Assembly: GCA_030248295.1 (NCBI GenBank)
Contig: JASANH010000647.1
Coordinates: 372,001-436,000, forward strand
DNA length: 64,000 nt
Direction: 5' to 3'
Source of the DNA: Mesodorylaimus sp. YZB2_4
Lineage: Eukaryota > Nematoda > Enoplea > Dorylaimida > Dorylaimidae
A program made the position numbers and the translations under genes. The notes below the pieces were generated by a model. It did no database searches and was not told the DNA's origin. It saw nothing but the letters and a program-made list of their open reading frames with translations. This document shows, one piece after another, positions 13,531 through 54,206 of this stretch. Numbering within the stretch: the stretch's first letter is position 1; every line of letters begins with the position of its first letter.

Positions 13531-13905
13531 GCAAAAATCAAGACGCACATACTTGTTAGGGGCCATTCGCGATGAGAACCTGCAAACTGCTTATAACACT
13601 GCGGGTCACGTGACTTGTGTGCAACCCACAGACATTGTAAAGTAGACGGGGCCTGCAGCACAGGGCCGCGCGCGACCTCGCACTCGCTTTCGTTGCGGTC
13701 GCAAAACAGTCGCCTGACGCCTTTAGTCGCATGGTGCCCGTCACAAGGTAGGGAATAGAAAAGTGCTGCAGCCATCACTGCAGTGTCGTGGGGTGCGACT
13801 AGTGGCATCGCTTTCGAATGCAGATTTCAAAGAGGTGAGTTTGAGCTCGACCGCAGTTCTTGTCTCTTGAATTTTTGCTCTTAGATAATTGGAAATTGAA
13901 AGAGG

Positions 13906-15401
13906 ATGAGTGAAAATCGAGTGCGTTTGCCGGACGTTGTGGTTCGAAATATATTCGCCTACCTTGGCGGCCGTGATTCATGGGCGGCGTCGCAGACGTG
14001 CTTTGAATGGCGATCGATCGGACTGATGTCTCGAGCGGGGTTGCAGACCCTGCGCGTGTCCGATTTCTACGTGGACTTGGTTGTGGAGGATCGATTCATC
14101 GAGCGTCCCGTATTCCATCGTCGCGAGGACCTGGCCGGGTTGACCTTGTTGAGGACGAATGTGGTCAAGAAGCTGACCGAGTGGCTGGCCGAGATGTACC
14201 CGACTGTGAGTCGCTTGGTATTCCGCAATCACGTCCGACGTGGACGCAGCGAGGGTCGTCTGCCGCACCCGTCTCGACTGCACGTGTTTATTATCAACGA
14301 GTTGATGAGTCACCTGGTGCGTTTGTGGCCCAAAGTGGAGATGTTGGACGTGAGTGGAGAAATCGTGGACGTGCGGGCCCTGCATCAGGTCAAATACTGG
14401 CCCAATTTTATGGAAGTTCGTTTGTCCGGCGCCGACCTGTCCTTCAACATGCTCACCTGGCGATACCGAGTGGCCGACGCCCTCTGCAAGACCTTCTGGG
14501 CCCATCCCCTGGCCGCCCTGCGAATCAGCAATTTGCAATTGAGCTTCGATCTGAAATTCACGAGGATGACGCACTTTAAAGTAAGACGTGGCCTGTGCAT
14601 TTCCCCAGTCATTTTGCCTTTTTTCAGGCCCTGAACAACAAATGGTTGACGACGGGTTGGCTCAACGCCTTCCTCAAGGAGGCCGTCAATCTTCGCTCGC
14701 TCGTGATCGAGTGCCAGTACGTGCACGACGAGAACATCGTTTTGATGGCCAACCTCAGCCAACTGCAGGAACTCGAGCTTCGCAATTGCGTTCACGTCAC
14801 TGATTTTTCGCCGCTTGCTGATTTGACCAGCCTGCGTTCGATCGTACTCGATTTCGGGGACAAGGGCAGCGAGGAGCAGGTCGCTCGGATCGTGCGTGGC
14901 AGCAAGAACTGGCGTCGCATTGTCTTCAACGAACTGGTCGAATCGGTGGGCGACGAGTTCATGTTCTCCTGCGCCCAGCACTTTGGTTTCCATTCGCCTC
15001 CTTTGCTCCACTTGGAACTGAATACGGAAAAGACGCACCCGCCGCTCGGTTATCACAACTGGATTCTGCCGGACATGAGCGTGCCGGCCATCGAGGCTGT
15101 GCTCCGTGCGTGCCCGCTCTTGCGAGTGTTCGGTTTGTGCAGCGAGACCGTCGACGACCAGTGTCTGCTCAGTGTGGCCGAGTACTGCCCTCGCGTCGAC
15201 ACCCTCCACCTCAACGATTCCCGAGTCTCCGACCGCGGCGTGCTCGATTTCCACGCAGCTCTTCGTCGGAAACGGGCCAGTGCCTTCTTCGGAGCGGAGG
15301 GCGGTCGTGTAGTCGTGAATGTGCGCCAGACGGGCTGCACCGAGAACCTGGTCGAAGAAGCGCGCCAGCAGTTTGGTGATGAATTGGTAGTGATTCTGTG
15401 A
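13906..15401 (+). CDS. F-box and leucine-rich-repeat protein
   Basis: Predicted substrate adaptor of an SCF (Skp1-cullin-F-box) ubiquitin ligase. Two exons, 13906-14580 and 14628-15401, are joined in phase 0 across a 47-bp intron (482 aa). An F-box lies at the N-terminus (about residues 5-40: VRLPDVVVRNIFAYLGG, then DSWAASQTCFEWRSI). Irregular leucine-rich repeats follow (LQTLRVSDFYVDL, VEMLDVSG, LRSLVIECQYV, LQELELRNCVHVTDFSPL, LRSIVLDFG, VDTLHLNDSRVSDRG). The gene is clearly more GC-rich than its neighbours and has GC-ending codons throughout, which also opens long shadow frames on both strands. The substrate is unknown. The FBXL-like architecture is clear but the subfamily is not. Confidence 0.85.
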
Positions 15402-23430: not shown

Positions 23431-26400
23431 ATGCGGATTGGCTACTTTATACTCGTCTCCTGCATTTTTTTGGGCCTAGCAGCCAAAGGACTAGCGGACG
23501 GTTCAATATTGACCACAGGTATGCGCGGGTTTCTATTTTTAACTTCGTCGCCGAAAATGGACACCCTCGTTTCAGTGTGCCCCACCTCACAAATGGCCAG
23601 TGCAATTGTCAGATCATTGTATCATTATAGCGTGTGCTGGAACAGCCAGCTTGTAAATTGTTCTCATGTCGAGACGGCCTCCATCGGGTTTTCTTACGCG
23701 GGTTTCACTATTCTCTTGCACAATGGGCAAGACTGGAAAAGGGTGGCTGAAGTGGCAAGACGGTTGTCCCTCTGCGCCACTACGTATACACTGGTTGATG
23801 TCACCAGGAAACAAGGATTCGAAAGCACTGCCATAACGTGTTCTCATGGAGCAGCTGCTATTGTCTTGGACTTGAGTGCGAGACGAGGCCATTTTGAGGT
23901 AAGTTACTTGGATAAACTGTGATATGAGGGTTAAAGAGGTCCAATTTTTTAAAAATTTCTATCCATTCCAGCGACTCACTGACCTCCTGGACGACTGCGC
24001 GGCCAGTTACGTGCCGCCCGATCATCCGCTTTCTATGTTCCATCGGGCATGCCCCAATACACTGTGGCTGGCTGGTGATCCGAGTATTCTTTGTGACAAC
24101 AATCAGACTGATGTCAGTTCCGTCACCTTGGTGCATGTCAATGTGCCAGCCGCCAACGCCACAACTTCAGTCAATGGCCGATATCAACCCGATGACAGAT
24201 TCCTGCTACGCGGCAAGGTTCTCAGAGTGGCTACAGTTGGGGTAGGTTCGATTGCTTTATACATATCTCTTATGTTTAATGCATTGGGAGCACTTCTTTT
24301 TCAGTCAGGTCCATTTGTCAGACCTAACCGCACCAACGAGTCTGCTACGGTTTACAAAGGCATTGTTTTCGAACTCCTTGATCGTATAGCAGCTAACCTC
24401 AGTTTTCGGTAAGCCACCATTTCCTCACATTTTGGATCGAACTGCAATAGCTCCGTGTTATATTGCTAGTTACGCAACAGTAGAGCCATCCGATGGTCAG
24501 TATGGGCTCTTAGAAGAAGACGGCACATTTACCGGTCTCATTGGAATGCTGCAACGTCAGGTGCGTCTCTTTCTGCGCTTGTCTCCGCGGTTTTTGGCTC
24601 TCAGCATGGAGGGTCGGCGTAGGATCTAATTTGCCGAGATAGGATTCTAGGGCGACTCATTAGAAGTTCTGTATGTGCGGACATCCGGAACGCACTGGGT
24701 TGAATCTCATCGGGCTCAGTTATGTGACGCATAGGAGGTCTAGCTTGGTCAAATTAAAAAGGCACATGGGTACAATGCGCCTCTGCTTACGATTAGAAAA
24801 GATGTTTTCAATGCCGCAGAATACGGTAGGCAAAAACAAAAACCGAAACTATTCAGAAATAAATAATACTGCTGTTCTAATAACGTGCAATCAAGGTCGG
24901 GTGCGTGATAGATAAATCAGGACCACAAATGTCGAACACACAAGCAGCGATTATATGGCCTTTGTCTCAAAAGGCCCGCATTGAGATGACTTATAATTCT
25001 TCCGATCAGGAGGGTTATTTCAGCCATTGACTTGCAAATCATACGGTCAGAGACTTAATTATAATTGGTTCTTCCCGTCATTTACAGGAGGTCGATGTCG
25101 TAGCTGCCGACTTGACAGTAGCTTACAACCGCAGCCTAGTTATTGACTATGCCACGATCCCGTTTTTCTTCGAGGCTATTGGAATTATGATCACGGAGCC
25201 AGTGAAATCGCAGCCATTGTGGAAATGGACTAGTCCTTTTGAGTATTCTGTTTGGCTGGTCCTGCTCGCAGCTACTGTAATCGTCAGTTCCATGTTGTAC
25301 CTCAACCACATGTTTCAATGCGTCTACGTGGGATGGCGATTCACTCATATCAATGATTGCCTTTGGCATATTGGCACTGGGCTGCTTAGTCAGGGTACGT
25401 ACAAGTTTGCTCATGTCTTTTAAAGTTCGATGGCCTCTGTCGCGCTAAACCGCTTCAAGATGCCTTCTTTGGGTCCTTTAGTCATACTATGCTTGTGCTC
25501 GACTTAATTTTAAAAATATTTTTTGAGACTGCTTGCTTGAGCGGTACGCCCGATTTTGCCTAAAGCCAGCCTGCAGCCAGACCTTGTAAGAGAGGCCTTG
25601 CGGACCAGTCACTCGGGAGCGTCCCTCTCTGTGCCTCCACTAGGAGAACCTCCACATGAGGGCATTTTGTACAGGATACGGTCTTTCTCGGACAAAGAAG
25701 TGTGGGCTGTGAACACTGCTCGGAGCACGACGGTACTTGGTGATGCTCCTACGACTTGGCCTGAAAGGTCAGTGACGGCTTGCTTACAAACACTCCGTCG
25801 CCAGGGACTGAACTCGGGACGAGCCCAGCTGTTCGATTTCGAGCAATACGGATAGCTGGACTACAGCACCACTGTGGTCGCTCCACAACAACAATTTGCT
25901 TATGCCGCGTCACCATGCCATGTCGCAGCCTACACGTCGCCTGAAATACGTGTATGCATATAACAGACACGGAAGATAAGAGCACGTGTTGCCAAAAATA
26001 AATTACCCAATGACACAGATCAGAAACTAAGCCACAAAATGCCAAACTGAAGTGCTTGTCAGAGCTACAGTATTCAGATAGCAAACCATTTCATAAGAAA
26101 CAAGTTTTTTCCCTAAAGAAACAAGTTTTGCTTGTATGGCTTATTCTGGGCTGGTACTGATAATTGATGCACTTATCTTTAGTGCTCGCAAATTTTATGG
26201 AGGAAATCCGACCTACAGATAAATCCTCTGTCACTAAAAGAGTTGTTGAATGTCTACATTTTTCTTCACATTCAGGTCTGGACTTCACTCCCGCCTCGTG
26301 GTGGGGTCAAACATTGCTCTCATTCTGGTGGCTTCTGTGCCTCGCTGTCATAGCAGCCTACAGTGGAAATCTCGTGGCCATGCTGACTACGAACAGTGTC

Positions 26401-27312
26401 ACACTGCCTCTCAACACTTTCGACGATCTGTCCAAGCTGGTAGAAAACGGGCAATATCGAGTTTGTGTACAAAACGGGACTAGTTTTTTTGATGAAGTTA
26501 TGGTACATAGGTCTGCCGCTTTTCTTGTTCTCCTGTTTCGAAATTTTTGCTTATTTCAGAAAGGCACATCACTTTCTTACCTTCCTGTAAGAAAGTTTCT
26601 CCAAGAAAATCCAAAATATGCAGTACCTACTACTGATGCGTGCGTGCAAATGATGGCCAATGACGACAAGCTAGCTCTGGTGCAAGAAGTGAATCAGTTG
26701 GAAGACTATCAAAGAATATGGTGCAAGAATAAGACATTTATAATTTTGAATGATCGATTTTATGCCAGCTATTTCGCCTTCGGCTTTCAAAAAGGATCTC
26801 CTTTTGTGTCAGCTTTTTCTGTTCCGTAAGTTCCGTTGTAGAAGCATTACTGGTTTGACCCCGCCCCAGAACTGCAATAGAAGTAGGCCCCAAGATCCCA
26901 GATGCAAGATCGCATACAGAATCAGTCAGACAAGGCCTTATTCATCTCATGTTTCGTTTTCAGATTACTCGAAGCCGTCGAATCGGGTCTGATCGCTATT
27001 TGGAAACAGGTTTATACAGCACGGGCTGAAATATGCCAGATTGTGCAGCCGAACAGTGCGGTCAAGGCAGCCATGAAAGCACTAGAATTGGGCGACTTCG
27101 TTGGTGTAATTCTAACATTCGGTATTGGTATAACGCTGGGTATATTATTACTGTTGCTGGAATGGGCGCGGCAGCATAAATACATCGATTCGATTTTGCG
27201 ATTTCTCTCACTTAGCCGCCCTGTTCAGGCTGCCACAGCAGATCCAGTCGAGTTATTCAAGACTGATGATGCCATAGCAAAGAAGTTGAACGATGCATTG
27301 CGGGTTACATGA
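23431..27312 (+). CDS. Ionotropic glutamate receptor-like channel
   Basis: A ligand-gated cation channel subunit of the iGluR/IR superfamily. Eight exons (23431-23898, 23972-24241, 24305-24408, 24470-24560, 25088-25394, 26276-26502, 26560-26825, 26964-27312) keep phase throughout and give 693 aa. In order it has a signal peptide (MRIGYFILVSCIFLGLA), a short N-terminal domain (about 240 aa, against about 380 in classical iGluRs), ligand-binding lobe S1 (YKGIVFELLDRIAANLSFRY; LTVAYNRSLVIDY with the ligand-carboxylate Arg), M1 (SVWLVLLAATVIVSSMLYL), the pore loop (HIGTGLLSQG), M3 (AYSGNLVAMLTTN, in place of SYTANLAAFLT), lobe S2 with Glu in ALVQEV, and a final membrane segment (TFGIGITLGILLLLLEW). 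Pore and M3 gate residues are atypical. The short N-terminal domain makes it closer to IR-type or divergent receptors than to AMPA/kainate types. Confidence 0.9.
25556..25895 (-). mobile_element. tRNA-derived SINE, reverse copy, in iGluR intron 5
   Basis: Reading on the - strand it matches the 12494-12905 element: head with CGTATTGCT and CTCGTCCCNNGTTCA, then GGTNCTCNNAGTGGAGG and CAGAGNGACGCT. It lies within the 881-bp intron between exons 5 and 6 of the iGluR-like gene. An open frame across it on + is not a gene. Confidence 0.75.
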
Positions 27313-31979: not shown

Positions 31980-32583
31980 TCTCACGATCAGAGCGGCCTT
32001 CGAAGGAAAGCAAACATTACCGTTATTCTCCCATCGGATTGAACAAGGTATATTTGGATCTATGTACACGTAATCGGCTGTCGGCTCAAAGTCGGCACAT
32101 TAGCTTGATGAGCAAAGCCCCTAAGCGCAGGAAGTGTTTAACCATCGTAATAAGAACTCACAATGTTTAACTATATTAACCGTGCCTTCGCTGAACCAGC
32201 AAGCCAGTTGATCCCCTGAGCGCAGGTAGTGACAGGTTTGACTAGCCCACGTTTTAAAATCCTTGTAGTGGAGGTCCGTCTTCAAGGGATTTGAATATGA
32301 ACTTAACGACCATTAGCACCAGGATGGCCCTCTAGGTCTGCACCTAAGCACCTAAGCGCCGGCTGCACCTAAGCGCCGAAAGGTACGCGCCAAACAAGAA
32401 AGGTCGTAACCGTTCAGACACCTCGAAAACGGAATATTAATCTCTAGTTATGTAGGCCGTAAGCGCCGTGAGCTCCAACATTAACAAATCTGCTGGGCAA
32501 GTAGCAGAGCATCCTCAACGGATCGTTGACTCAACATTACCTTATATTCTTTCATTGTACTAGATAGATTGAGCGGTGTGGCA

Positions 32584-34650
32584 ATGGACGAAACTCCTGC
32601 CCCGAGAGGAGTGACCAAGGCAAACCTCATGACAGAAAATAAGAAAAACCCTGTTGCAAAAGCTCACGAAGATCTTGTTGAAAGAGTGAGCGTAGCCGGC
32701 TGGAAAGAGGCCTTCATTGAGCCCATTCTCTTGATCCGTCTCACTTTCCAAATATTCCTCTTAACGTTCTCTGGCTTCTGTCTGCACTACATGTCCATGA
32801 GCATAAGGGAGTGGACCATGAGTGGCTACGCGGATGAAATCGAGGACTTTGTGGCCGTTGGATCAATAGCAGCCTCGAACGTGACTCTGTGCACTCACAC
32901 ATCCTTCAATCAGACATGGCTCGAAGAAACAGTCAAGATACCTCCAAGAGTACTTGAGAATCTGAAAAAAAGAAATTACTCGTCAAAAGAATTCATCCGT
33001 CAATTCTCCATATTTCTGAAACCATCAACTCAGCCTCGCGTTTTTGCTCCTTTTCTGCTGGCCTATTTCTCAACTGTCGTCCATGCTCATCCACATCTTT
33101 ACAACTACTCATTTTTGGAGTCGCACGCACCATCGTGCCAGAACCTGTTCAAAAAGTGTTGGTTCGATGGACAAGAGTTCGATTGTTGCGAAAGAGCAGT
33201 TCGCTCAATCGATGATGGTGGAATATGCTATGTGCTGGCGGTAAGTCCGATAGCGGCATACTCGAAGGTGTAGCCTCCTTTCAGTTTGAGCTATGGGACG
33301 TGGTCCTTTTGTCAATTGCGTTTCGTCAATATTCTGGCAACGTCAGTGCCGCGTAGTTTTCATGCCAAGAAAGGAGTATCAGTCAAAAAACTGGTGTATG
33401 GTGGAGAGCAAAGAAGAGCGAATTTTAAAAGTTATCGTTTTAGTCTGTCATCAATCAGACAGAGAAACTTATGTTGACTTTGATTTTTTTGTAGTCACGA
33501 AGTGGCAGTCCTGGAACCTATTGAAAATTCGTTCATTTTGCATGGAAGCACCCTGAACCTTTTGTGCTCACTGTCACTTTACACTCCCCCTTCTTCAACT
33601 TGGCATGAGTAAATTGTAGCAGTACAAAAAGCTGTCCGCTTTTTCTGGTGTGGGACCCCGTGATAATTTCAAGAGATTACTAGCCATATTTTAGCTCAAC
33701 CAGGACAGAGACAACGCAATGCCTTCCGAATCGACGATGCGTCAAAGCAGACCAGGTCCAAGTGGAGGACTGGTCGTCGAAGCCTCGCTGTCACTGCGCG
33801 ACTTCCCGATCTTGGAGGACGATGTAGATCATGGTTTCATGGTCACAGTTGCTCCAGTCCCTTTCAGCATCACATCATCCCCAGTCGCTGCGCCAGACAA
33901 AACCGAGACATATATTAGAGTCGTCCCCCAAAAACGAAAGATGATGGCCAGTTGCGCGGGGCCCAATCAGCTCCAGATGGAAGGGACAGGGTCCCTGTAC
34001 TATGACCCTGAAGGAATGAGCTGCCTAGTCCAAACACTTTTCACAGTTGTCAGGAAGTACACTTCGTGCGAGCCTTGCATATACTTCAGACGGCCGAGCG
34101 AGAAGGACCTGTGCAGTCCAGCACATCTATTCGCCGCCTCATCGATATTTGCCAGTGAAAGTTTAGAAAAAATGTCCTCTGACTTGACAGCACCGCTACT
34201 CGGCGTTACTGGCAATAAAGTAAGTCGTATTTTGCAACGCTGCTTATAGAAAATAATTTTCCAGCATCGTTTTAGTCTTCCAGTCTCCTCAGTGACATTA
34301 ACGATGGTATAAAACTTGTTCTGTCGGATAAAGCCCGATGTCCGAACCACTGCACTTATTGGACCTACTCGAGCACGGCCAGCTTCTGCTACTTGGACGA
34401 TGACGATGGTTCTGCAAGCGAGAGCGTGTACAGTAAGATCTATGTCTACTATGCCGAGCTCGACTATCGACAGCACAGCCAAGTCAAAGAGAAGACTATT
34501 TATTTCTTATTTTGCGAGCTGGGCAATATTGTGGGCTTGTACTGGGGTATGTCTGTGATAAGCTTTTTCCATGTGACTTTCTATGTTTCCCAATACTGTT
34601 ATTATGTGAGAAAATATAGGGGCGGCAAGGTAGGCAGTGCAACGGTCTGA
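32584..34650 (+). CDS. DEG/ENaC-family sodium channel subunit
   Basis: Plasma-membrane trimeric channel subunit of the degenerin/epithelial sodium channel family. Three exons, 32584-33240, 33695-34219 and 34276-34650, all phase 0, give 518 aa, a usual length. TM1 is LIRLTFQIFLLTFSGFCLHY near residue 48. The extracellular loop has paired cysteines (KCWFDGQEFDCCERAV; CEPCIYF; CPNHCTYWTYSSTASFCYLD). TM2 is preceded by YFLFCELGNIVGLYWG and contains G-M-S at the selectivity-filter position, then VISFFHVTFYV, followed by a short tail with RKYRGGK. The classical N-terminal His-Gly gating motif is not apparent. A decayed paralogue lies 11.7 kb upstream. Ligand and ion preference cannot be inferred. 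Confidence 0.85.
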
Positions 34651-43984: not shown

Positions 43985-46900
43985 CTATGTCATCTTCGCA
44001 TTAGAAGGTGCACTGCTCTTGATACCACCCACTGCTTCCTCCTCCACTCTACTACCCGTCGATTTCATGTCTCGAACCACAGTTATCACCTGCTCCATCA
44101 GGGGCGTCTCGTATATGTTCCTGTACGGAGCAAAGGTCGGCAGTCGACGCAAACGATCCAAATCCTTCTCCAATTCGTGCAAACTTTCTTTCGTGCGATT
44201 ATATTTCTCCACATCAAACCCCTTCTTTCGACACAGTTTGTAAAACTTATTCAAGGCCATCCTTTCTTTGGCATCGGGGTATTCGTATTGCTATAAAAGA
44301 CCAAAAGCAGCTTTAACCGAATTCAACTGGCCTAGATTGCGCGCTACATCTTTGCAACAATCCCCTAAGCTAACATTTGCGCCCATAACTCTCATCGCCG
44401 AGCAAGCGCATTCTGGTGACGTGATCACGCACACACCCTAGCCACTCCAACGTTTTATTAGCCGTTTCCGTGCGAGACGGAGAGCGTGAGAAGGCTTACT
44501 TTTCTTATAAGATCCCACACAAAGCTGCAACGAATTCATTTAAGCAGGTGAATGGCTCAGTGCCGGCCTATCTCTCGTGCACTCGTAAATCACCCCTTTC
44601 CAAACCGCTCCCGCTACCCCTATGCATCCAGCACACAGAAGGGGGATCAATTTCTAGCTAGCCCTTATCCATGAAAAGGCTTCGATCTCACACATGTCAA
44701 GTTTAAAAAACTAAATCTCTTGGTTCCTCTTCGTCTGTTCCTGGCGTGTTATTCATTGCTAGCGAGAACCCCCGCCGCTTTACATGGTGAGTCTTAAACA
44801 AAACCCATTTCTATCCTTTGCACCATCCCATTTCCTCAGCAAAAAAGCATCGATTATTTGTGTTCATTATCAACAGAGACAGCCCCCGCACCCGTTGCCA
44901 CCTACCATACTCCCTGGTGAACCGGTCGAGCAAATTAGGCAATCCAGAGCTAGCTCAGCCATAAATCAAATTTCTCTTTCCCTCCTCCCTTTAACTACCG
45001 TTACAAAACCAGGCAGCTGTGCCCTCCATATTTGCACACACGGCCACACAAACTCATCGCCCATTTCACTCTTGCCACTATATCAACGTCAAAAATCTCC
45101 CCTCTCTCCACCCCGTTCGGATTCAGCCCCATTGTACCCAATTGATCGACCTATACCCACCGCACCAAGGCGAAAAAGTTTCAGATCCCATTCTGTTTAG
45201 ATATGAAAACAGAAGAGCACTTACGATTCGCGTTGCGACGAAATACGCATAGCCACCGATGACGGCAGTATATGTCGCGAAATACGTGACCGGCTCCATA
45301 ATATCCCAGCTGTATTCGAACCAAGTTAGCCGAGCAAAAGCTCCCATTTGCACACCCATCAACGCTAATCCAAACCATAATAATCGATTCGTTCTTTTCT
45401 CACTTTCACGAGCAAGCAATTGCTTTTGCTGAAAAAACCAACGCAAAGTCGAGTAAACAGACAGCAAGAAGGCTATCTACAAGCCTCATTATACATCAGC
45501 ATTTGGCAATCCTGCGCTGCTCTGCCCCTAACCAATATTATATAATTAACAAAGCCTAACTTATTCAAAAACCCCGTCTTTTCCCCCGCACTCAACCAAA
45601 GCTTCCCCCACTCGTTTGGACATTTTCGAAAGTAAAAATCGCGTAAAGAGCTTTCGTCTGCTTTATTTACCTTTTCTAATGGCTCCAACGCTTGCCGCAC
45701 GGTTTCCAATTTCGCCACTAGCTCACGTTCGGTTCGCAAACATTGCTCGTCGGCGTTCAACGACGCATGTAAGCTGGCGACAAGAGCTTTGACATCGTTG
45801 AGCTGTTGAATATGCTCTGCAGTCAGCGATGCTAAAATGAATACAAATTTATCCTATTTAACAACAAGACGTGTCAAATACCGCCTTACCATGTTTAGGC
45901 GGACTAGCAAGATATAATCGATCGTTAAGTCGAATATGGAAATCCGACTGCATCAAATGTTCGATAGATGTCGAACCAGCAATTTTTGTTCCGTCTAAAA
46001 CGCAATATCCTTGGTATCTCGACATTACAAAACCTGAAACCTCTTACCAACATTATAGAGCCCGATCGTATCGACCCCTCGGTCCTCTCTTCTGACATAA
46101 TCGCATAAATCGGATACAGTTTCCGTAATCGGCCTGAGTGCGAATTCGCAACGCTCACCACGCGACGGCAATGTCAACGTCAGCACCGGCAGCCCGTGGC
46201 GATATTGAATAGTCACATCTAAAAATCAAAAGGCAAAATCAAACACAATTCCGTTAGATATTTATGAATAAACCCATCTCGCTCCCTATTGCCACCATTC
46301 AGCGGCAAGGGATACCTTTATCACGAAACATACGCCCGAGGGAACTAGTCGCTGCAGGGTATGCGCACATAAGTACACTAGAAACGAATCACTTATTCCT
46401 CTTCAATATTTGGTACGGTTCAACTGCCTGGACTATAGACGACCTTAACTGTTAGCAGCGCACTTTTCCAATACGCGAGGTCTCAAGAGACATTAGCACT
46501 AATGGCATTCTCGTCTTCGTACGCGCATATAGGACCAAGCAATTTCATGAATCGCGTCACCACCTAAGCACAGCGTCAAAGACGGCGAGGCTGGAGCAAT
46601 GTTCAACCGAAAATACGCGGTGTTTCGCTCCCTATTCAATGCCGAGAAAACCCCACTTGGAATCAGCAGCACAAAAAAACCTAATGCCACACACAACGCG
46701 GTAACAGAATTCGTTTCGTCGTCTCCTTCAACGGATGCACAAAAAAGTTGAGCGAAACTGTTGCTTTCCTAGCCTGCACCCAGGCCAGGCAGTGTTTGAT
46801 TGATAAGTGTAGGCCGCGCTCAGACAAGTTTTGAAGAGAAGATGAAAGAGTTAGTTAGCCCTCTGACGCATTACAGCACACAAAGAACTCTGACCCAGAA

Positions 46901-48019
46901 AAGACAGTGAAGAGTCATATATGGAATTAAAGCTGCAATACTTCAAGATGAAGTGTCTTGTTTTTCTACATTTTCTAAATTCTTCTTGGGTCGATGTCAG
47001 AGTAAACAACGCAGCTAGCATGAAGAAAAAGCAGGTGCTGCCAGCCAAAGCGTATCGATTGAAAGAAAAGCAATGCATTTTAAATGCGTTTGCTTCCAAT
47101 TACGGCCTGAACTGTTCTCATTCCGTTCAAACGCTGACTCAGTTGATTTCCGCTCAGGAAACATTATTCTTGCCTTCAAAGAGCGTCTCGTCTCCTGCTG
47201 CTTCCTTTTAGTTTGCGCACACGTGAAAAAGACGGATGAGAGAACCTTACATGCAGCTTTAATCATGAATGTAACTGAATCTTTTATAGATAATGACGGG
47301 TAGCAAAGTGCATTTGTGCGATCACAAGAAAGCGAGGAAAAATTTAGCATTTAAGCCCAGCATATTTGCCTGTGCAAATATTATTGATAATCTCATAAAC
47401 CCTGGCGTTCGCTTTGCCAAGTACCCATATTCTCACTCAACGCACTGCTTGAACCGGAGTGCCTTCTCTTTCCTTTCGCGGCGCTTTTGGCAACGGCTGC
47501 CAGCATACCACTTCCCTTATCAGGAGAAGTGTGACTCAAAACGAAAACCCCGTTCATCAAATGCCGCCCACACCATTGGAGGAGAGGTGAACAATAAAAG
47601 TAAACGTGTGTCATCTTCTTACCTCCTTCGATTACTTGCTGAGATGTAGCCACAGTCGCGAATCCGGCAAATTGCACGTTCCGCAGTCGACAGCTAGCTA
47701 ATGAAATGCATGGACAATGAGCCGGAAACGAGAAAAACTAAAATGATAGGCAGATAATTTAACTGAAATGACGCGATGAAGTGAAATAATTAGGTAGACC
47801 TACCTGCATAGGTGTTTGGTGAGACACACGCAATGACGCATTTCGATCAAAACGGCGAACAAAACTTAGGTTCCGACGATATTGATTAGATGATTTTGAC
47901 GCAAATAAACGCATAGATTTCGAAGCCGAAAGCGCAGTAGAATAAATAAACGTTCCGTTAAAAGCTACTAATCGACAAGCATTCAGTGAGCCCGTCGCCG
48001 AGAAAGCGACAGAGGCCAT
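43985..48019 (-). CDS. mcu: Mitochondrial calcium uniporter pore subunit
   Basis: Pore-forming subunit of the uniporter that imports Ca2+ across the inner mitochondrial membrane. Exons on -: 48019-47804, about 47697-47623, 46218-46048, 45994-45890, 45831-45671, 45428-45225 and 44290-43985. Exon 1 encodes a Ser/Arg-rich, acid-poor presequence (FASKSSNQYRRNLSFVRRF). The N-terminal domain is recognisable (VTIQYRHGLPVLTLTLPSR; EDRGVDTIGLYNVDGTKIAG). Coiled coil 1 is ELVAKLETVRQALEPLEK. TM1 is followed by the filter sequence WDIMEPVTYF (DIME motif) and TM2 (YAYFVATR). Then come EYPDAKERM and coiled coil 2 (VEKYNRTKESLHELEKDLDR). All junctions from exon 3 on are phase-consistent. The exon 1-2 join is not: exon 2 needs one extra base or another donor, so the border in the presequence is uncertain. 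It is divergent from MICU1. Confidence 0.95.
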
Positions 48020-48368
48020 TGTTCTACTGTATGCCTGCCTTCTTATCTTTTATATTAAACGCTGGTAGTGAAATTTTGATGTGGTGAAGGACTTTTACAA
48101 AAAGAAACGGTTCGAAAACCGGACTCCGGAGACCAAATAAAGTGACACAAATCGCACAACGACAACCAACGGCTCAATAGAGGTCTGTGCCACGCAAAAG
48201 CAGACTTCTGCTCTTATTTGATATAAGCAGCAAGAGTTGTCTGCTTCTCCGCGCACGTTTCCGCACGTGCACTCCGACCGTATCGATCGTTTTTCTGCTT
48301 TTGATTCATGATAAGTATGTGAATCGAGATAGCAATTTTGCTCTTTTAAGTTTTTTAACCCCGCAAAA
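48020..48368. promoter_or_regulatory. Shared MCU-MICU1 bidirectional promoter region
   Basis: Only 349 bp separate the two start codons, so both promoters and 5'UTRs must lie here. A symmetric E-box GCACGTGC (CACGTG at 48264-48269) lies 245 bp from the MCU and 99 bp from the MICU1 start codon, with a related GCGCACGT just to its left. TATA-like AT-rich runs flank each start (TTTTATATTAAA at about 48049; AAGTTTTTTAA at about 48348). Shared regulation is inferred. Confidence 0.7.
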
Positions 48369-51300
48369 ATGATCATTCTTTGTCAATCACGTTTATTCCC
48401 CCAAGTAAATCGCCTGCGGGTGGTTTCTGTACCGTTTCTTAAGAATTACTCCGCCGTTATTGGCCCAAACAGAACCTTGGCTGTTCTGTCGCACGGTCTA
48501 GTAAATCATGATTCAATCAATGGAAAACGCGATGGATTATTGGTTCCAGTATCCTCGTCGCAGCACCGGCTGATCATAACTCAACTTACACGCGCTCTGG
48601 CGTCGGGGAAAGGATACACAGATTATGGTCACGAAAGGTTAAAACCTGGTCATCCAATGCATTCGATCTATATCTTCATAATGGGAATGATGGCTGTTTC
48701 GTTGATCTTCTTTTTTGTTACCAACGCGGAACAAGAAGAACAGTATATCCAATTTTTTCTTGCGTTAGGGTGTTGTGAATCGTTTGAGAGCATTTATGTT
48801 GTAGGCGCCCAATGTCAGATAAAGATCCGAAGAAGCCATGGAGCGTTTATGCCGCAACATTGGATCATCGAAGCTCTGGGGCAAAATCGGGCTCGAGTGA
48901 CGACAAGTCGGAAAAAGATCTGGATGAAGGACAAGAACAAGTCGAACCCAAAGAAACGGCGGAGCCTGCGGTACCGAAGAAAAAACGGCGATCTTTTCGC
49001 GACAGAAAAGTAAGACTAGTTTCATTATTATCGCAGTTCATTCTCATTTAAGCACGCATGCGCGTGCGTTCGAGAAAAAACAAATCAATCTAAAAGAGAG
49101 GCCAACAAAAAAAATTTTTAATAAGCGCAGGCAAGAAAATAAGCATAGGCCTACTGTAAATTAAATGACTTTGCCAATAAGAACTCTTTATGTAGCAGGA
49201 TTTTGGGCTATTACATAGAAGGCTAAAACCTTGGCGTTAAACGACACAGTAATTTGATCCACCTAATAATGACTGAAGAATCTTCCATACATGCCGGCAC
49301 CCTATAATAGCCTATAATCATTACAGGCTAACCACCAAAAATTTGAAAAAAGTGGAGGACTGCGCAGTCGCGGCCATGAAAAAAAAACATTATTTCTTTT
49401 TTATTCTGCGTCTTTGAGCAAATTTTGCGCTGTCTGTGCTCCTGTCCATCTGCAATGCCCATTGGTGTCATTCGTTGTGTTATCTTCCAAATTAGATGGA
49501 TAGCGAGAGCATTCAGCTATGGATAGACTAAAAAAATGATACCAACAATCATAACCAATCTGGAGAGCATTGAAGCAAATCCTGATTCTGAGTCTGATGG
49601 AAATGCGAAGGCAGTAGCATCAGGTTACAAGGAGCATTTTTTACTGATTCACGTTTCCACACAACTATGTTATTTCTGAGATGTAGTTTCAGTACTGAAG
49701 CATTACTCTTGGAGTCTACAAAATAGAAAGGCTGTCCTAATAGTCAGGAACACAGCAGAGACTTGCTACTGAATGGGTTGAATCCGATCCAGCCAATCCG
49801 CTTAAAAAAATAAGAGTGATGGTGATGACATCTCTGGCCCTGTTTTCTCGCTGTCAGACTACTCCAAGGGACGCAGGACTCCGAGGACTAACCAGCACCT
49901 AAAGTGGGATTACATGCTGATTTGAGAGAAAAAAACGGCATGTTCTCACCTTAGTATGCCACAAATTATCATTTTCCAGCGGATAAAGCGTGAAAACTTG
50001 AGGTTGCCAATCCTGCCGATCCAGCAGTCGGATCGGATCCACCCCCTGGATCGGGCGATGCTGGTTGCGCACTAAAAACAGCGAAATTTGGTCATTTTAA
50101 GCCATAAGCCAAAAATGTCAAAATTTAGTGATTGCGCACCAAAAATAGCGAAAGTTTAGGGACTGCGCACCAAAAACAGCAAAATTTAAGAGACTGCGCA
50201 TTTACAGGCTAAAGCTCGGACTGTCGGATCATGTATAAGAATTATAGATGCCCAGGAAAGACTGTGTGTATGGGATGTTGACTAGGATTTGGCCGCCGTG
50301 TACATAAATATTCCCTATTCATGTGGACCGAAGCCTCTTATTCTCTGCATCATGGTGAGGTAGGAATCACATGCCTGGGCTTCTTCGACCTCGGATACAG
50401 CGCAAGTCTCGACCGAATGAACTGTGTGAATAGCGAGCGATGCCCAAGTCGCTAATATGGGATAGTGTGGCTAGGACACCCATGAATTATGAAAGACACC
50501 CGTGTGGTCCAGTGAGGTCGAAGGGTTGCATTACGGAGGGCGCAATCTACAGTAATGCAGTATGTTGTCCCGCAAACTCGTGAAATCTGGCACCAACATC
50601 GCATAGGTTCGTATCATTCTTAAAAAGGCCTTTGATGTTTTGACTCCTTTGCTTAGATAATTGAATACGAAAATCGAATTCGTGCTTATTCGACACCGGA
50701 TAAAATATTTCGATATTTCGCCACGTTGAAAGTCTATCCTGAGAACGAAGCGCACCATCCGAATAATTTTGAAATCTTCATGACGCCCGAGGACTTCGTG
50801 AGGTCGATTACGCCTGGTGTCATACAGCCAGAAGGTAGTGCAAGATATAGTACAGCACATTCTAGTTTGTAAAAGCTAGAATACATGTATTTTTCTGAAT
50901 TTAGGTTTACGGTTGGATCAGTTCCGTTCATTCGATCCACACAAAGAAAAATTGAATTTCAATTTGGAACCGGACAGTATTTTTTACAAACTTGGAGAAA
51001 ATGGCTTGATTTCATTTTCCGACTATATATTTTTATTGACTGTACTTTCGAGTAAGTTACAGAATTCAAACCAGTACATTGGGGCATAGGGACTTTGACA
51101 GGAGCTCTATTCATATCGGAAAGTCGGATTTGTTTCATGGGACTGGGATGATGGGATCGTGAGGACAAGTCACACCACCGCTTGCCAGTGCAGGAAAATG
51201 TTCTGACCATGCGTGAGCTTAGTCCAGATGCTAAAGGTAGGGAATAATTCCATACGCAGATTGTCCTGAAAGTTTTTTACTGTTTTGACGAGTAAGCATA

Positions 51301-53264
51301 CTTGTCTAATTTTTTTTACAAAAATCCTTGCGATAGTGGCACCTGCTAGCGATGATTGACACGGTTTTTCTGACTTCATCATATTAGGTAGCAGTGAAGC
51401 AAGCTTTACCATGATATACTAGGGGTTAAGTAGGGGGCCCCTCTACTCTGTTGTGTACATGGGACGGGCACCAAACCCTCAACTTGCTATGCACGGAGGG
51501 TGTGCAACCGTGAGTTGGCGCATTGATAATAGTGCAGGTTCAGGTGCAGTGTAAACTGTACATAGCACACTGTTGAATAGAGCGTCTAATTTTATGGTTC
51601 TGTGGCGGTTTTGATATATCCAGTCCATGTGGTAGCTGATGAATCGCTTTATTCAAAAGTTTGTCATGAAGAATTCCTGGAAATTGAGCATGGACCTGTA
51701 ATTCAATTCGAAAAAACAAAGCTGGCAGAGATCCATAATGAACCCATGACTGTTTGCGGGAAGCTTGCCGCCACACAGAGTCATCTTTGCTCTTTTGCAT
51801 CAGATATCGAGTGACAGCTCGGTGGTCGATGTCAAGGTTTCCAGGCACTTTTCATTGACTAATAAACTTTTGAAGTGAGCCACTCACCAGTACCTCCCAA
51901 TCATAAAAATGGACGCTCTATCCAATGGCGTGCTTCACTTTACCGGCGAAGCCAACTCATTGTCAGACACTTCTCGTATCATGGCACAGATCAGATCTGG
52001 CAGCTCACAGGTCAGCCCTCTGTGTAACGGGCAACTGGGGGGGGGGGCTTCTGTGACACCCACCAGTGCAAGGTTGCTGTTTTATTCTTTTTGTTTTTTT
52101 CAGCTTCTCCTCGTCATTTTGCGTTGGCGTTTAAAATGTTCGATCTGAACGGCGATGGCGAGTTGGATTACCAGGAATTCGAGAAGGTAAATTTGTACTT
52201 TGTCTTTCTGCCCCATCGTCAGCTCACTTGTGTCCTTCAGGTGGAGTCAGTTATTCGAAGTCAGACTAGTGTGGGAGCCAGACATCGAGATCACTCGAGC
52301 ACCGGCGGAATGCTGAGGCGTCACGTTAACTCGGCATTGGCTGCGTATTTCTTTGGAAATGAATTGGATGGAAAATTAACGATCGAAAAATTTTTAGAGT
52401 TTCAAGATCATTTGCAAAGAGATATTCTTCAAATTGAAGTAAGCAGTATTTTTTTCAGATTCTCATCCTGGTTGGTTTAAAAAATTGGGTGCTTTTTAGT
52501 TTAACCGACGTAAACCTAAGGAAGGAAAAATTTCCGAAGTGGCCTTTGCTACGTTGCTATTGCAACATAGCGGGCTTCCAGAAAAGCGCCAACGTCGAAT
52601 GCTTGGCCGCGTGAAGAAACTGTACGGCAAGAAAAGGCGACTCGAAGAAAACAAAGCCGACACAGAGGAGGAACAAGGAACGGTGGAAGACGAGCAAGCT
52701 GAAGTGCCGATTTCGGGTAATATTATCAACTTGAAACCTGGCAAAGATTTGAGTCTTATTCCTCCGAAACCGCGAGGAATCAGTTACGACGAAGTGAAAG
52801 CTTTTTTCGAACTTTTGGATAATATATCGGACGTAGATACGGCATTGACCTTTTATCACATGGCCGGTGCTTCAGTTGACAGATCGACTTTGCAGCACGT
52901 TGCGAAAACTGTGGCCGGGGCGGAAATTAGTGATCACGTGATCGACGTCGTATTCGCATTATTCGATGAGAATCGTAAGTGTTTTGTTGCGTTTTATTGA
53001 TTTTGGTTTGACAAGCCCATAATTGGACAGTTTAACGGGGTGAGGCTGAGGAGGTTTCCGAATGCTGACCTGTTCAAGGATAAGAGTTGCCTGATGTGCA
53101 ATTGTTTTGCAGAGGACGGCGAGTTGAGTAATCGGGAATTCGTGTCGGTGATGAAACGACGTTTGATGCGTGGTCTGGAGCGGCCGAAGGATACGGGACT
53201 GATCCGGTTAGTGGCTGCTTCGTGGCAGTGCGCTTGGGATCGAACGCCAGCCATGTTTGGTTGA
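48369..53264 (+). CDS. micu1: Mitochondrial calcium uptake protein 1
   Basis: EF-hand gatekeeper of the uniporter, acting in the intermembrane space on MCU. Eight exons (48369-48742, 48805-49009, 50657-50834, 50905-51051, 52104-52186, 52241-52438, 52500-52974, 53113-53264) are all phase-consistent and give 603 aa. It has a presequence and a membrane-like segment ([19 protein letters not shown]), then a polybasic stretch and joint [29 protein letters not shown] as in MICU1. [13 protein letters not shown] and [16 protein letters not shown] follow. EF-hand 1 is [12 protein letters not shown] and EF-hand 2 is [12 protein letters not shown], both with complete Ca2+ ligands. The end, [13 protein letters not shown] and ASWQCAWDR, matches the MICU1 C-terminus. 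Length exceeds human MICU1 (476 aa) through a longer N-terminus and a Lys/Glu-rich insert ([17 protein letters not shown]) between the EF-hand lobes. Confidence 0.97.
50065..50210. repeat. Short tandem array in MICU1 intron 2
   Basis: Four imperfect units built on TGCGCACCAAAAACAGCGAAA followed by a TTTAG/TTTGG stretch, the last one truncated. Unit spacing is 35-60 bp. It lies in the 1647-bp intron between exons 2 and 3. Confidence 0.75.
51905..51995. repeat. tRNA-D-arm-like dispersed repeat in MICU1 intron 4
   Basis: Shares GGACGCTCTATCCAATGG and nearby blocks with 4177-4260 in ARF intron 2. A G-rich tract (10 Gs) follows at about 52037. Confidence 0.5.
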
Positions 53265-53624: not shown

Positions 53625-54156
53625 CTAATAGTTGCACTTCGACGTGGCTTTGGGCGAACAGTCTGAATATTCGAATCGACCCTGTGATTGACGTTCGATC
53701 ACGCATCGGTTGAGATGGTAGTCGCAGAAACAGCCGGTCTCGCTGGAATGGAGAAGAGTATAACTGATTTGACAGATGGTCTTGGGAAGTTAAAGTTTGG
53801 GGTCTGGATTGGGTCAGATGGCTGCAACAGGAGGAGTGTCTTGGATGGCAAAGGATTAGGCCCAGGGGTCGATGGCTAGGCCATACTTACCCATATCTCT
53901 CCCTCAGTTCATTAGTATTGAGTGGACACCACTCGTCCGGCTCCCGTCGATCGTAGCAGTCCGAATGTCCATTGCAGAACTTGGCCGTGCCAGTCGTCTG
54001 CACCCAACTGCCCTTGACTCGATAGAAGCGTCCGAACGGGTGCCACGGGGGGCGGCCATTGAAAATCAGTGGGAATGTCATCAATTCTCCCTCAGCGCTC
54101 TCCAAATTGGGCAGAAGGCAAACGAGTGCCAGAAGGAGAGCACTAGTCGCCATCAT
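53625..54156 (-). CDS. Secreted LDLa-like cysteine peptide precursor
   Basis: Two exons on - (54156-53891 and 53742-53625) are joined in phase 2 (127 aa). The second exon is only 39 codons and was found through the acceptor ATTCCAG. A signal peptide (MMATSALLLALVCLLPNLES) precedes PLIFNGRPPWHPFGRFYRV, then KFCNGHSDCYDRREPDEWC, an LDL-receptor class A-like Cys/Asp pattern. Exon 2 adds GETGCFCDYHLNRCVIE, YSDC and a final C near the stop. Eight cysteines in the mature part and no membrane span indicate a secreted protein. The combination of a proline/aromatic N-terminus and LDLa-like motif recalls insect prohormone/ITG-like precursors, but this is only a resemblance. A TATAAAA box lies about 45 bp before the chosen start, which rules out the in-frame ATG at 54195 as start. 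Confidence 0.75.
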
Positions 54157-54199
54157 AGTCTCCTCGTCTGTCTGATGACGGACAATAGACAGCACTCCG

Positions 54200-54206
54200 T
54201 TTTATA
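54200..54206 (-). promoter_or_regulatory. TATA box of the LDLa-like gene
   Basis: TATAAAA on the - strand, 44 bp upstream of the start codon at 54156. Expected transcription start is near 54175. Confidence 0.7.

Follow-up and report, generated by a model that had tools for sequence, protein, structure and literature searches.

The genes for the pore MCU and the gatekeeper MICU1 stand head-to-head in this nematode genome, with MCU on the reverse strand (start codon at 48019) and MICU1 on the forward strand (start codon at 48369). Exactly 349 bp (48020..48368) separate the two ATGs, the ends of the gap being set by start codons and not by transcription starts. The MCU-MICU1 neighbourhood was already known, and the nematode pair is a compact instance of it. 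We consider it moderately probable that these divergent orthologues owe their adjacency to an old animal linkage, compacted here to 349 bp, with one region probably serving both. When MICU1 is too scarce relative to MCU, the channel is poorly gated, and for this reason the matching of MCU and MICU1 amounts by cells is a live question. What makes the pair valuable is the chance to test whether co-regulation is the reason why the two genes stay together.

The two genes and their junction

The window analysed is a gap-free stretch of 64,000 nucleotides (positions 372001-436000 of contig C17, without any N) from an assembly of 145 Mb in 1067 contigs. Both genes were rebuilt as spliced models, and both are complete, with an open frame from ATG to stop and GT..AG at all introns. 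The first-pass annotation had placed MCU and MICU1 head-to-head, 349 bp apart; the rebuilt models give the same outer coordinates and the same spacing, and the DIME filter and both EF-hands that it named are located below. Being neighbours on opposite strands with their heads together, the genes form a divergent pair. The 501 bp spanning the junction occur once in the assembly (100% identity). Divergent pairs are common in themselves; the chance adjacency of two named genes among thousands is unlikely.

MCU encodes 413 amino acids in seven coding exons (48019..43985, reverse strand). Exon 1 (47800..48019) carries the start codon and is followed by exon 2 (47623..47697); the junction between them, in the N-terminal part, is modelled (donor end of exon 1, acceptor end of exon 2), and an alternative GT and AG four bases off break the frame. 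Exons 3 (46048..46218) and 4 (45890..45994) lead to exons 5 (45671..45831) and 6 (45225..45428), both matched by the Pfam MCU model, which has no match elsewhere in the assembly. Exon 6 contains both membrane helices and the DIME filter (45294-45305, reverse strand, within WDIMEP); exon 7 (43985..44290) ends in the stop codon. The stretch WDIMEPVTYF is invariant in all seven aligned sequences (the present one and those of six other animals). The protein matches PF04678 at 1.5e-60 (204.7 bits, cut-off 30.8) and, among PDB entries, MCU chains at 3.8e-82. Its relatives among the matches listed are nematodes, vertebrates and arthropods, mixed and with scores alike.

MICU1 encodes 603 amino acids in eight coding exons (48369..53264, forward strand). 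Exon 1 (48369..48742) starts the protein, followed by exons 2 (48805..49009), 3 (50657..50834) and 4 (50905..51051). A 31-bp tandem repeat in three copies (50109-50200) lies inside the long intron before exon 3. Exon 5 (52104..52186) contains EF-hand loop 1 (52142-52177), and exon 6 is located at 52241..52438. Both loops are canonical, 12 residues long, and accompanied by Pfam EF-hand matches. Loop 2 begins in exon 7 (52500..52974) and is completed in exon 8 (53113..53264), which also holds the stop codon; because an intron splits the loop (52965-52974 and 53113-53138), it is contiguous only after splicing. Alignment with PDB chains places about 46 extra residues, rich in K and E, between the two EF-hand lobes (around 52626-52769, exon 7). 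The protein matches MICU1 chains in the PDB at 1.9e-134 (452 bits), the best MICU3 and MICU2 chains reaching 121 and 103 bits. The gene is MICU1, not MICU2 or MICU3, and the product would be predicted to gate MCU in a Ca2+-dependent manner. The closest named relative among the matches listed is from the nematode Plectus sambesii (52% identity).

EMRE has a single match in the assembly, on another contig (C20, 636781-636981), which places the third core uniporter subunit outside the MCU-MICU1 cluster. The flanks were scanned using 126 of the 151 open reading frames of at least 90 amino acids; the excluded frames are 24 in or over MCU and MICU1 and one at 228-542. DNAJB12, P4HA1 and NUDT13, which neighbour the human genes, belong to the Pfam families DnaJ, prolyl 4-hydroxylase and Nudix; none of these families is matched in the 126 frames, a scan that misses short exons. 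The reading frames do match a histone-fold CBF/NF-Y family (1812-2819), an F-box (13900-14631), a ligand-gated ion channel (26164-26826) and an amiloride-sensitive sodium channel (32530-33270), and a DB module is also among the Pfam matches. The nematode protein family Chromadorea_ALT is matched at 53890-54201 on the reverse strand, convergent with MICU1. Together with the DB module and the Plectus relative of MICU1, this match points to a host that is probably a chromadorean nematode. SL1 RNA, a nematode marker, has no match in the assembly, a result of no weight because its control gave no match either. One of the 126 frames matches COX1 (6.1e-5), as a possible nuclear mitochondrial insert or by chance; motif scans and single scans of 30 frames did not locate it. 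Rfam gave no match at gathering score across the window.

The gap between the start codons

The gap (48020..48368) is a putative shared upstream region, delimited by the spliced models and scanned for motifs. A TATAAAA is found on the MCU side only (48048-48054, reverse strand). When the window is cut into 1274 equally long segments, 29 of them have a TATA-like site near the segment end, which makes it rarer than the E-box. It is very close to the MCU ATG and would thus leave almost no leader. A CACGTG E-box is located at 48264-48269, and the CpG content of the gap is moderately high. Both are unremarkable against the window segments (an E-box in 92 of the 1274; equal or higher CpG in 6.6%). 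Overall, no motif stands out in the gap when it is compared with segments of the same length from the window.

Barring unseen leader exons or trans-splicing, both core promoters and both leaders would be located in or near the 349-bp stretch. A single region of open chromatin would then probably serve MCU and MICU1, and pore and gatekeeper would be at least partially co-expressed. Co-regulation of the two genes through this putative shared region is plausible. A fixed ratio of pore to gatekeeper, which the first-pass annotation expected of a shared promoter, is conjecture: a shared promoter does not imply a fixed ratio, since its output can be unequal in the two directions and the two products differ in how they are translated and how stable the proteins are.

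Within one open-access library, surveyed mostly through listings, we found neither a shared MCU-MICU1 promoter nor the nematode pair described. Excerpts of PMC7158096, PMC7889948, PMC7423614, PMC8224590, PMC6506686 and PMC4734683 hold nothing on gene order or promoters of the pair. The pairing had been called undescribed; within that library, this stands for the short-gap form and falls for the adjacency itself, which the human and duck gene lists already show.

Linkage in other animals

The literature is cited here from excerpts of the papers. Table 4 of PMC4256931 lists, for human 10q22, DNAJB12, MICU1, MCU, OIT3, PLA2G12B, P4HA1 and NUDT13 among others. A list for duck chromosome 6 ends with P4ha1, two unnamed loci, Pla2g12b, one unnamed locus, Oit3, Mcu and Micu1 (PMC13255704). 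Each list runs in the reverse order of the other, a hint at map order, although the excerpts of neither paper (PMC4256931, PMC13255704) state the order. Human MCU and MICU1 are described as 'a cluster of genes' at 10q22.1 (PMC10088886), and both, under old symbols, fall inside one 3.5 Mb interval of human chromosome 10 (PMC3129671). The first-pass annotation had regarded the genes as unlinked in the animals in which it knew them. This is contradicted by the human and duck lists, in which MCU and MICU1 stand side by side (PMC4256931, PMC13255704; as a cluster, PMC10088886); in arthropods, six of nine comparable species among the matches listed have both genes on contigs of equal size.

Among the arthropod matches listed, the two genes are on contigs of identical size, to the base, in six of nine comparable species: Ischnura elegans (126002890), Schistocerca gregaria (510884443), Athalia rosae (31322461), Oratosquilla oratoria (136562582), Brassicogethes aeneus (57801713) and Anthonomus grandis (27480715). 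The comparison was made by eye on the best 120 of 1423, 392 and 1120 proteins per search, the size being that of the longest contig bearing the protein. Timema monikensis and Strigamia maritima, present on both sides without contig sizes, were left out. The sizes for MICU1 and MCU differ in Hetaerina americana (45315813 and 16021033), in Palaemon carinicauda (105404600 and 160936739) and in Rhynchophorus ferrugineus (325292 and 43002243, probably two assemblies). A difference is weaker evidence than equality because a single cluster at 90% identity may combine proteins from several assemblies. Identical contig size in the six species places both genes on one chromosome but says nothing about adjacency. 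If the chance in each species is assumed to be 0.10 to 0.25, the binomial probability of at least six in nine is 6e-5 to 1e-2; as the species are related, the count favours conservation and does not represent independent events. Relatives of the MCU-MICU1 pair were absent among 180 and 26 pattern matches in genome and viral contig collections. In Drosophila, MCU and MICU1 are presumably on different chromosomes, and to our knowledge they are not adjacent in C. elegans. We take the human genes to be divergently oriented, with a gap of tens of kilobases.

Origin of the pairing

Judged by the printed gene lists and the contig sizes, the linkage is most likely old, and the nematode pair appears to preserve an ancient arrangement in compact form and not to be a novelty. 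The linkage may be inherited and the 349 bp the result of mere genome compaction, with two independent core promoters and no meaningful co-regulation. According to excerpts of PMC2670823, 31.6% of D. melanogaster genes belong to divergent pairs with a spacing below 1 kb, which makes such pairs common, and distance and level of co-expression are uncorrelated; the lack of an outstanding shared motif in the gap likewise fits mere compaction. Human MCU and MICU1, however, show a strong positive correlation of expression in one tumour type, colon adenocarcinoma (PMC10088886, excerpt), and 349 bp from start to start would leave little room for two insulated promoters. We regard compaction as the whole explanation as somewhat unlikely. 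A stronger form of the favoured reading is doubtful at present: the genes would have been linked since the bilaterian ancestor through selection on co-regulation, the nematode being the extreme case, with a true bidirectional promoter coupling both.

MCU and MICU1 could also have joined independently in the nematode lineage, the likeness to vertebrates being coincidence or convergence. Nematode gene order is much rearranged, which would allow this, and two or three of the nine arthropods, among the matches listed, are without both genes on one contig. Excerpts of PMC2670823 point the same way: only 9 human divergent pairs are fully conserved in C. elegans versus 97 under 'both orthologs' (Table 2), and divergent pairs appear to be of independent origin in insects and vertebrates, which calls for caution on the inheritance of the MCU-MICU1 adjacency. 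The divergent layout as such is ordinary; long-term conservation of such pairs is not. If its gap is tens of kilobases, the human MCU-MICU1 pair would lie outside the counts of PMC2670823. The identical neighbours in the human and duck lists, as excerpted, and the single contig in six of nine arthropods among the matches listed argue against a separate origin, which we consider improbable. Misassembly of the junction, a possibility raised by the first-pass annotation, is rejected as hardly credible, as the junction is unique and gap-free, both genes are complete, the contig extends to at least 436 kb and the human and duck neighbour lists agree with the arrangement.

If an old linkage persists in vertebrates, in some arthropods and in a nematode, selection on co-regulation is indicated, and the 349-bp version would offer a short DNA segment open to experiment. 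If the pairing is incidental, an old gene neighbourhood has still been found in a nematode.

Comparison with known systems

The nematode pair resembles the divergently-paired genes of PMC2670823 (from excerpts) in that the genes are adjacent, lie on opposite strands and start within 1 kb of each other. It differs in that those pairs are defined by transcription starts and the 349 bp by start codons. Unlike divergently-paired genes in general, its partners are the pore and the gatekeeper of one complex. Both products keep the marks of their families: the WDIMEP core motif of the MCU family (PF04678) is retained in nematode MCU and the two EF-hand loops of the MICU1 family in nematode MICU1, the latter carrying its extra residues at a site where human MICU1 has two. 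The vertebrate pair (human 10q22.1, duck chromosome 6) consists of the same two orthologues, neighbouring in the excerpted lists. The human gap is taken to be tens of kilobases, whereas 349 bp lie between the nematode start codons.
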